From Prosthecobacter debontii (GTDB taxonomy: Bacteria; Verrucomicrobiota; Verrucomicrobiia; Verrucomicrobiales; Akkermansiaceae), in NCBI GenBank assembly GCA_945873125.1, contig CAMCBV010000002.1, forward strand, positions 53,043-117,042: a DNA stretch of 64,000 bases, read 5' to 3'. Made by a program: the position numbers and the translations under genes. The notes under the pieces were generated by a model, which saw nothing but the letters and a program-made list of their open reading frames with translations, made no database searches and was not told the DNA's origin. This document shows positions 20,856-23,800 of the stretch, piece after piece; within the stretch, counting starts at the first letter, position 1, and every line of letters starts with the position of its first letter.

Positions 20856-23800
20856 ATGTCCGAATCACGTAAACCATTTCCCTTCAGCGAATTTGAACCC
20901 AAGTGGCAATCCCGCTGGGATGACGAGAAGACTTTCCGCACGCCAAATCCGGGCGAAGCAAGTTTTGATGCCACGAAGCCGAAATATTACGTGCTCGATA
21001 TGTTTCCCTATCCGAGTGGCGCGGGCCTGCACGTCGGACATCCTGAAGGCTACACGGCGACGGATATCATCGGACGCTACAAGCGCATGCGGGGTTTCAA
21101 TGTCTTGCACCCGATGGGTTATGATTCGTTCGGGTTGCCAGCGGAGCAATACGCGATCAAGACCGGCCAGCATCCAGCGATCACGACTGCCGCGAATATT
21201 GAAAATTTCCGCCGTCAGCTTAAATCTTTGGGATTTGCCTACGATTGGGAGCGCGAGATCGCGACCACGGATCCGGAATATGTGCGCTGGACTCAATGGA
21301 TTTTCCTGGAGATTTATAATTCGTATTTCTGTGAGGAAACGAACCGCGCACGGCCAATTTCCGAGCTTGAGGCAAAAGGCTGGAGCCGGCCAAAAATCGA
21401 TGCGGTGCGTTTAGCTTTTGTAGCTGACACGCCAGTGTGGTGGTCGCCGGATCTTGGAACGGTGTTGGCGAACGAAGAAGTGGAGGAATGGAAATCGAAA
21501 GGCCACACCGTGGAGCGCAGGCCTCTGCGTCAGTGGATGCTTCGCATTACGAAATACGCGCAACGCCTGATCGATGAGCTCGACACACTTGACTGGCCGG
21601 AAGGCATCAAGTTGTTGCAGAAAAACTGGATCGGCCGAAGCGAGGGAGCGGAGGTGAAATTTCAAATTTCAAATTTCAAATCTCAAGTGGAAGTTTTCAC
21701 GACGCGTCCGGATACGCTTTTTGGCGCGACTTATATGGTTCTAGCTCCTGAGCATCCGCTAGTTGCAGAAATCACCACGGAAGAACAAAAATCCATCGTT
21801 GAAATCTATCAGAAATCCATTGCATCGAAGTCGGATTTGGATCGTGGGGATTTGAATAAAGACAAATCCGGGGTGTTCACGGGTGCTTTTGCGGTGAATC
21901 CGGTTAACGGGGAGCAGATCCCGATCTGGATTGCGGACTATGTGATGATGGGCTACGGCACCGGCGCGATCATGGCGGTTCCTGCGCATGACGATAGGGA
22001 TTTTGAATTTGCTCAACGATTTGATCTGCCGATCAAGCAGGTGGTTCAAGGGGAGCGTGGGCGTCCCGCCCGCTTCTTCTCTTCGGACAGCACTATCGCA
22101 GAAACCAAGCATAAACTTCCACACTGGCAGCAAGGCGAAACCGCCTGCTTTGTCACATGGCGCTTGGATGATAGTCTTCCTAAGGAAATCATCGAAAAAT
22201 GGGAAGATGAACGCAACACGTGGCTTGGATTTAACCCAAAACCTTGGAGCGAAGCTTTGGAGAAGGAATATCACGAAAGATTTTCAGATCGGTTAGATGA
22301 ATGGCTCGATAGCGGCGCGGGCTCATGCACATTGAAGGATCCGAGTATACGTAAAGTAGTGTCGGATGCTCTAACTCATTTCGATAGTGAGCGGTATACG
22401 CTTCATGCCTTCGTGGTTATGCCAAATCACGTACACGTGCTTTTTTCTCCCCTAGACGGCCATGAGCTCGCGGACATCTTGCATTCCTGGAAAAGTTTCA
22501 CCTCCAAGCAGATTGGTAATCAGCTGGGCAAGGAAGGACGATTCTGGCAGCCCGAATTTTACGACCGGCTTATTCGTAATGAGCGTCACTTCTTCAAAGT
22601 GGTTGAGTATGTTTTGGAAAATCCGGTTAGGGCAAAGCTCTCTGAAGATGCGTTTACGCTTTGGACGTGTGAAAATGCGGGCGGGACGCCCGCGCTCCCT
22701 TATACTGCTGCTGGAACCGCGGTGAATTCGGGTTTCCTAGATGGGCTACCTACCGCAGAAGCAAAGGCAAAAATGATCGAATGGTTGGTTTCTAACAACC
22801 AAGGCAAGCGCAAGATTCAGTTCAAACTTCGCGACTGGTTGTTCTCCCGTCAGCGTTATTGGGGTGAGCCGTTTCCAATCATTTGGAAAGACGGTCAGCA
22901 CTACGCGTTGCCCGATGATCAGTTGCCGTTATTGGCTCCGCCATTGGATGATTACAAGCCATCTGGTACGCCTGATCCTTTGCTTTCCAAAGCCACCGAA
23001 TGGGTGAACTTGCCAGATGGATTCACTCGTGAAACCAACACCATGCCGCAATGGGCGGGATCGTGCTGGTATTATTTGCGTTACTGCGATAACAAAAACG
23101 CGGATCGGTTCATTTCAAAAGAAGCCGAAGATTACTGGACGAGTGAAAAGCCGGGCATGGTCGATCTCTATGTCGGCGGAACCGAGCATGCGGTTTTGCA
23201 TTTGTTGTATGCGCGGTTTTGGCACAAAGTGCTCTTTGATTTAGGGCATGTCAGCACGCCTGAGCCGTTTCAAAAGCTGGTTAACCAGGGACTCATTCTG
23301 GGTGAGGATGGTCAGAAGATGTCAAAATCACGTGGCAACGTAGTCAATCCCGATGATGTGGTAAAAGAATACGGTGCAGATTCCCTACGCCTTTATGAAA
23401 TGTTCATGGGGCCGCTGGAGCAAGTGAAGCCATGGCAGATGAAGGGTGTGGAAGGGGTTTCTCGTTTCCTTGCCCGTGTTTGGCGCTTGGCGATCACTGA
23501 GGAAGGTGAAGTGTCCGACAAAGTGGTGGGCGAAACTTGCACCGACAAAGAACTCAGCCGAGTGGTGCATGAAACCATCAAGAAAGTTGGCGAAGACATC
23601 GAGAAATTGAGTTTCAATACGGCGATTTCACAAATGATGATCTGCACCAATGCATTCACGCAGGCAGGAAAAGTTCCGGTGAAAGAATTTATTCAGTTCC
23701 TCACTGTGCTGAATCCGTTTGCTCCGCATCTTTCCGAGGAGATCAACGAGCGTGTGGCCAAGGCTTTCAAACTTCCCGCGGCATCGCTCTCGGAATCGGC

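Follow-up and report, generated by a model that had tools for sequence, protein, structure and literature searches.

The locus described here raises the question of how a predicted-essential gene, leuS, can hold a complete REP-associated tyrosine transposase (RAYT) inside its own reading frame, and whether the transposase is a mobile guest, a passive passenger, or a domain that serves its host. The gene lies in a window of 64,000 nt (the whole stretch of DNA that was analyzed) from Prosthecobacter debontii (assembly GCA_945873125.1, contig CAMCBV010000002.1, positions 53,043 to 117,042 of the forward strand).

A predicted LeuRS with a transposase domain in the same frame

The leuS frame runs from its ATG to its stop codon with no internal stop or frameshift (Table 1), and a Pfam scan of its product, P0001, placed the editing, catalytic, and anticodon-binding domains of leucyl-tRNA synthetase (LeuRS) around a Y1_Tnp domain (residues 510 to 586). 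The host part has the features of a bacterial LeuRS, namely, the HIGH and KMSKS motifs, the CP1 editing domain, and the anticodon-binding domain, and P0001 is a predicted LeuRS that carries a whole RAYT domain in the same frame. The insert takes up codons 399 to 615 (positions 22050 to 22700), i.e., 217 codons where empty alleles have 9 (PLDDSNWQG in the near-identical ones). Alignment with the Thermus LeuRS (1h3n) breaks off in the host parts at residue 364 and restarts at residue 377, which places the insert in the loop after the CP1 editing domain, as the original prediction had it. A search of the genome, a fragmented assembly (2.88 Mb in 83 contigs, 94.3% complete), found one copy of leuS. 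The nine further matches to P0001 were either to its RAYT part or weak, partial matches to its LeuRS part (32 to 34% identity), and no second leuS was found. The single-copy, open-frame chimera proposed from the DNA was thereby borne out. The window also holds a short repeat (aaatttcaaatttcaaatttcaaatctc; positions 21657 to 21690) that is translated in frame as FQISNFKSQ in the LeuRS editing region.

Table 1. Features of the leuS locus, with positions counted from the first letter of the window
Feature	Position	Strand	Basis
leuS ORF, LeuRS-RAYT chimera (P0001), 1056 aa, ATG to stop	20856..24026	+	Frame reading, Pfam
LeuRS N-terminal part, codons 1-398	20856..22049	+	HIGH-type motif and CP1 editing domain inside
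HIGH-type motif HVGH, in LeuRS N-terminal part	21030-21041	+	Comparison with 1h3n
CP1 editing domain (Pfam PF13603), from residue 256	Within LeuRS N-terminal part	+	Pfam
Left REP arm, translated within GERGRPARFF	22051..22079	+	Inverted-repeat search, translation
RAYT (Y1 HUH transposase) core, residues 421-608	22116..22679	+	Pfam, 4er8 match, alignment
HUH motif His525-Val-His527	22428..22436	+	Row alignment
Predicted catalytic Tyr585, aligned with residue 115 of E. coli TnpAREP	22608..22610	+	Alignment
Right REP arm, inverted copy, translated within NAGGTPALP, predicted DNA hairpin	22671..22699	-	Inverted-repeat search, folding
LeuRS C-terminal part, KMSKS and anticodon-binding domain	22701..24026	+	Pfam, 1h3n comparison
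KMSKS motif	23316-23330	+	LeuRS C-terminal part

The model of P0001 obtained with AlphaFold2 from 109 sequences (pLDDT 81.5, pTM 0.70) was used in place of a poor first model from 45 rows (pLDDT 63.9). Both cores are mostly good in it, and confidence falls below 50 at residues 399 to 426, 567 to 570, and 606 to 619, mainly in linkers encoded by the arms. The 50 PDB fold matches listed for the model are all LeuRS entries. Folding is thus predicted for both the LeuRS and the RAYT part, with linkers of low confidence connecting them where the arms are.

The RAYT core matches the E. coli TnpAREP chain 4er8 (E = 1.8e-7), with Tyr585 opposite residue 115; passages of PMC8266576 name Y115F as the catalytic mutant. 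The HUH pair had been correctly identified from the DNA, His525 and His527 both being His in 91/91 LeuRS RAYT rows (89 of them distinct) and in 181/181 other RAYT rows. The catalytic tyrosine had been wrongly assigned to Tyr569, a position that is Tyr in just 24 of the 91 LeuRS rows; Tyr585, which is Tyr throughout both sets (91/91 and 181/181), fits. Over leuS, carB, and hsdR pairs the RAYT dN/dS is 0.06 to 0.32, a range limited to pairs with finite dS, as dS is saturated in many LeuRS pairs.

Separate translation of the RAYT was considered and rejected. From 30 codons before to 15 after the start of the RAYT core, the 12 leuS loci have no in-frame ATG, only GTG or TTG (two of them, L013 and L017, have a ribosome-binding-like sequence ahead of GTGs at -29 and -28 of the core start). 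A Met in the region of the core start occurs in 2/68 LeuRS chimeras versus 50/110 short RAYTs, some of which are perhaps fragments. The RAYT is predicted to be made solely as an internal domain of LeuRS.

The same chimera in other genomes

An assembly or binning artefact that fused a RAYT to leuS was considered as an account of such a frame, since the genome of the window is an assembly of many contigs. A search limited to large proteins gave 448 matches; among the best 120 of these, 77 are LeuRS, of which 66 exceed 1000 aa and have both flanks, and the insertion site is identical in all of these other full-length chimeras (66/66, from the best 120 of 448). One LeuRS chimera (P0022) is encoded on a contig of 954,781 bases, and four chimeras come from named public genomes (loci L074, L079, L088, and L091). 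With dozens of chimeras from several sources, in frame at one site, an artefact was rejected, and we give it a very small probability. Some of these proteins are already visible in databases, JGI having named them "leucyl-tRNA synthetase/REP element-mobilizing transposase RayT". Most comparisons made here involve metagenome-derived proteins gathered by similarity to the RAYT or LeuRS of the window. The original prediction of a lone LeuRS chimera thus stands as regards the chimera and is too narrow as regards its being alone, given how widespread such chimeras are, the differing RAYTs of near-identical leuS genes, and the many other host genes described below.

What leuS carries is a REP-RAYT-REP element translated in frame with its host, and we consider it likely to be a mobile guest, with a RAYT predicted to be made solely as an internal domain of LeuRS, a frame protected by the host, and a probable spread between leuS genes at one fixed loop. 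The frame would be kept open because a stop or frameshift in the RAYT would destroy the host LeuRS.

REP arms

The two arms of the window element are 29 nt each and 90% complementary, with one differing base in the outer 23 nt; the claim that 22 of 23 positions are identical and that both arms are translated accordingly held. A 19-nt arm pattern (at most 3 mismatches) occurs twice in the window versus 0.02 times expected by chance, and the REP of the element has 15 copies in the genome (at most 3 mismatches, both leuS arms counted) versus 0 for the control. The windows around these 15 copies were read in part (L060, L063, and L069 are unscored and some windows overlap); of the REP copies read, a single one outside leuS (L061) is located in a long frame. 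The left arm folds weakly (z = -1.1). It is preceded by CAAG in place of the GTAG tetranucleotide, which is present at one other REP copy (L062). Since some RAYTs tolerate changes in GTAG according to passages of PMC8266576, its absence was not taken to exclude membership of the RAYT protein family.

Inverted arms flank the RAYT in 12/12 leuS loci examined. In a comparison set of 12 elements (11 from leuS and 1 from metH), the match of the two arms within an element beats that to every other element in 9/12 and is tied in 2/12; for the window element, its own arms score 17 and its left arm scores 19 against the arms of L016 and L017 (ungapped score). The arm peptides are REP palindromes translated in differing frames (e.g., GERGRPAR in L001 and RSVGVSPT in L010). 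In three leuS loci (L012, L018, and L019, of genomes G028, G018, and G035), double or nested REP arms lie by the RAYT, as if REPs had entered next to REPs.

Empty, REP-only, and filled leuS alleles

The original prediction had proposed looking for empty leuS sites in relatives, and such alleles do exist. RAYT-free LeuRS proteins are common among the nearest hosts listed and are up to 98.7% and 98.3% identical to P0001 on the two sides of the insert. P0001 and the empty P0129 have no host differences in about 68 aa before and 70 aa after the insert, and P0002, with a RAYT, differs from the empty P0136 in a single host residue outside the loop. At this site, and still in frame, further close relatives carry a single REP (QGENPGGTPALP) or two paired REPs (QGERGRPARLFSTSEEAGETPALP). 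As whole-gene nucleotide alignments misplaced the junction in 4/5 pairs, we read the leuS loops codon by codon. In a sample of 37 genomes of the same genus (30 scored; 7 missing, partial, or not read), 11 loops hold a RAYT, 4 a REP or REP pair, 10 are empty, and 5 hold other sequence. The presence in relatives of a different transposase, of palindromes alone, or of nothing at this site is our reason for regarding the element as likely mobile. Longer loops of other sequence occur at the RAYT site in three genomes (L020, L054, and L048, in G015, G005, and G039); the loop thus also admits sequence other than REP elements.

The same 9 to 10 host codons, between VV(Q) and (Y/F)xxxG, are missing from the filled and the REP alleles that were read. 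Plain insertion into an empty site would not remove them, which suggests that alleles were exchanged via their flanks and did not arise by plain insertion time after time. Activity of the RAYT need not be required for such exchange.

Conflict between host and guest trees

Trees of the RAYT core and of the LeuRS flanks of 67 chimeras disagree, and each alignment rejects the tree of the other (AU P of about 3e-8 and 4e-8). Among 21 pairs with a host identity of at least 90%, the RAYT identity is below 65% in 10. In the pair P0011/P0064 the LeuRS parts are 99.0% and the RAYTs 49.5% identical, and in four further pairs the hosts are 94 to 97% and the RAYTs 51 to 61% identical. Host identity beside the insert stays high in most of these five pairs (13/19 just before the insert in P0043/P0107). 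P0001 and P0002 are concordant (host 96.5%, RAYT 93.0%), and their guests look vertically inherited. Discordance of the same kind is seen in metH (L003 versus L155: hosts 92 to 94% identical, RAYTs 55%) and carB (L039 versus L041: host dS 0.54, RAYT dS 2.4). A 272-row tree of RAYT cores unites the 91 LeuRS rows in a single clade (support 94). In a 352-row RAYT tree, LeuRS needs 2 changes, CarB 3, and HsdR (38 rows) 26, starred branches leaving a single origin possible for LeuRS and for CarB; the RAYTs of PriA, ValRS, and DUF1156 are not paired according to their host genes. The tree sample was gathered largely by similarity to the RAYT of the window, which favors LeuRS neighbors.

These results bear on two other explanations. 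According to the first, the RAYT is a passive passenger: leuS alleles are swapped by ordinary homologous recombination (e.g., natural transformation), and selection merely keeps the frame open. Whole-loop swaps through conserved flanks predict that REP and RAYT alleles lack the same host segment, as they do, and the LeuRS RAYTs are one lineage. Against this, frame-keeping alone would not demand an HUH pair and Tyr585 that are invariant in the LeuRS rows, or the low RAYT dN/dS; the arms that match best within most elements point to a RAYT reading both; and RAYTs have reached many unrelated genes. We regard a passive passenger as unlikely. According to the second, the RAYT is a domesticated domain that serves the host, e.g., in DNA repair or translation-linked regulation. 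The low dN/dS and the invariant catalytic residues would fit such a role, as would the seemingly vertical guests of ispG (see below) and the status of RAYTs as domesticated genes in passages of PMC8049555. Near-identical LeuRS proteins exist without a RAYT, presence is patchy inside one genus, and RAYTs in near-identical LeuRS proteins are about 50 to 60% identical, all of which speak against service to the host; we hold it to be improbable.

For a mobile guest, which we prefer, the following course can be proposed. LeuRS would still charge tRNA, the guest being tolerated because flexible linkers, encoded by the two REPs, join it to a loop whose length varies. Acting on single-stranded DNA, the RAYT domain would bind the hairpins of the REPs that flank it and would cut and rejoin them via Tyr585. 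This activity, together with recombination through the conserved leuS flanks, would transfer the element to alleles that are empty or already hold a REP; if the RAYT were lost, one REP or a pair of them would stay behind in frame. That the active site is conserved and the arms are paired suggests a part for the RAYT in the spread.

Comparison with known systems

Inteins occupy fixed sites in core proteins as in-frame guests, with gene-specific lineages, empty alleles, and horizontal spread. The leuS guest, whose own horizontal spread is probable, shares this pattern with inteins that carry homing endonucleases and differs in that its arms are REPs, its nuclease is a Y1 HUH enzyme, and it is predicted to remain part of the mature protein. 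An intein proper was rejected, the Pfam scan of P0001 having found no intein family or splicing domain. A group I or group II intron was likewise rejected, as positions 21500 to 23200 have no Rfam match at E values up to 1.

A close likeness is to RAYT/TnpAREP genes and REPtrons (REP-rayt-REP). Here too a Y1 HUH transposase lies between two inverted palindromes, matching palindromes are dispersed in the genome, and the arms vary among elements and match within most. Passages of PMC2817692 describe RAYTs as flanked by two REPs with which they coevolve and mention a stop codon ahead of the downstream REP. Unlike REPtrons, the leuS RAYT is not closed by a stop ahead of its right arm and lacks an in-frame ATG around its start (12 leuS loci), and it lies inside the frame of another gene, differing between near-identical hosts. 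Elements of the IS200/IS605 family also have a Y1 HUH transposase and hairpin ends (passages of PMC6006769 and PMC8266576); the leuS element differs from them in having neither a separate, stop-bounded transposase gene nor a tnpB in the leuS frame. REPs and the Rickettsia palindromic elements are known to lie within genes, tRNA synthetases included, as palindromes translated in frame (passages of PMC3733652). Those are short and transposase free, whereas the leuS element carries a transposase in frame at a fixed site, with REP-only alleles alongside.

Among the open-licence papers listed, no title or abstract dealt with a RAYT within LeuRS or any other core gene, and passages of PMC4853749 have no bearing on in-frame RAYTs. 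In passages of PMC8049555, RAYTs are domesticated, single-copy genes with vertical inheritance, and the model used there has a gene destroyed when a REPIN is copied into it. Here, by contrast, whole REP-RAYT-REP elements occupy core genes in frame, and near-identical hosts have different ones. Passages of PMC6006769 report that unexpectedly long family members were discarded as fusions or annotation errors, and surveys that set such members aside would lose these chimeras.

In-frame RAYTs in other host genes

In the genome of the window itself, in-frame RAYTs lie in leuS, metH (L003), and ispG (L004), and genus mates have them in carB (2 genomes read), metH (4), ispG (5), hsdR (3), alaS (1), and others. 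In named genomes, 43/80 RAYT loci are internal, with an open frame of at least 120 aa on both sides (best 80 of 494 relatives), their hosts being Eco57I-like, HsdR, CarB, LeuRS, DUF1156, AlaRS, ValRS, PriA, XseA, PcnB, UxaC, and other proteins. Among the same best 80 of 494, in-frame RAYTs are held by Verrucomicrobia, Kiritimatiellae, Lentisphaerae, Planctomycetes, Bacteroidota, Cyanobacteria, Chloroflexi, and Proteobacteria; one is present in the isolate Pontiella sulfatireligans. As a control, DDE_Tnp_1 has 0/114 matches in frames of at least 700 aa versus 19/150 listed for Y1_Tnp (best 150 of 386).

From this distribution, we lean slightly toward a wider reading, in which RAYT lineages without a free-standing gene are unspliced, intein-like transposons in core enzymes (LeuRS, CarB, MetH, IspG, AlaRS, ValRS, PriA, and restriction enzymes) of several phyla, homing between species at a fixed loop in each gene and using the essential host frame as a shield against decay. 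The persistence of a transposase-bearing mobile element in essential genes without splicing, the function of a transposase as part of a tRNA synthetase, and homing by RAYTs thereby become testable.

The ispG guest of the window genome (L004; G000:C6, frame 559 to 3171, minus strand) is without long REP arms and has a repeated PSNSNN peptide before it. Unlike the leuS and metH guests, the ispG guests in six genomes look vertically inherited, and for this reason they may be settled or domesticated.

In-frame RAYTs occur often in restriction/modification genes (HsdR, Eco57I-like, and MmeI) and in DUF1156 genes, also beyond Verrucomicrobiota. Restriction-modification loci include L038, L044, L045, L046, and L078, and HsdR is used at two different sites. 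Other tRNA synthetases with in-frame RAYTs are AlaRS (L110, L149, and L162) and ValRS (L128 and L144), the two ValRS guests lying at nearly the same position.
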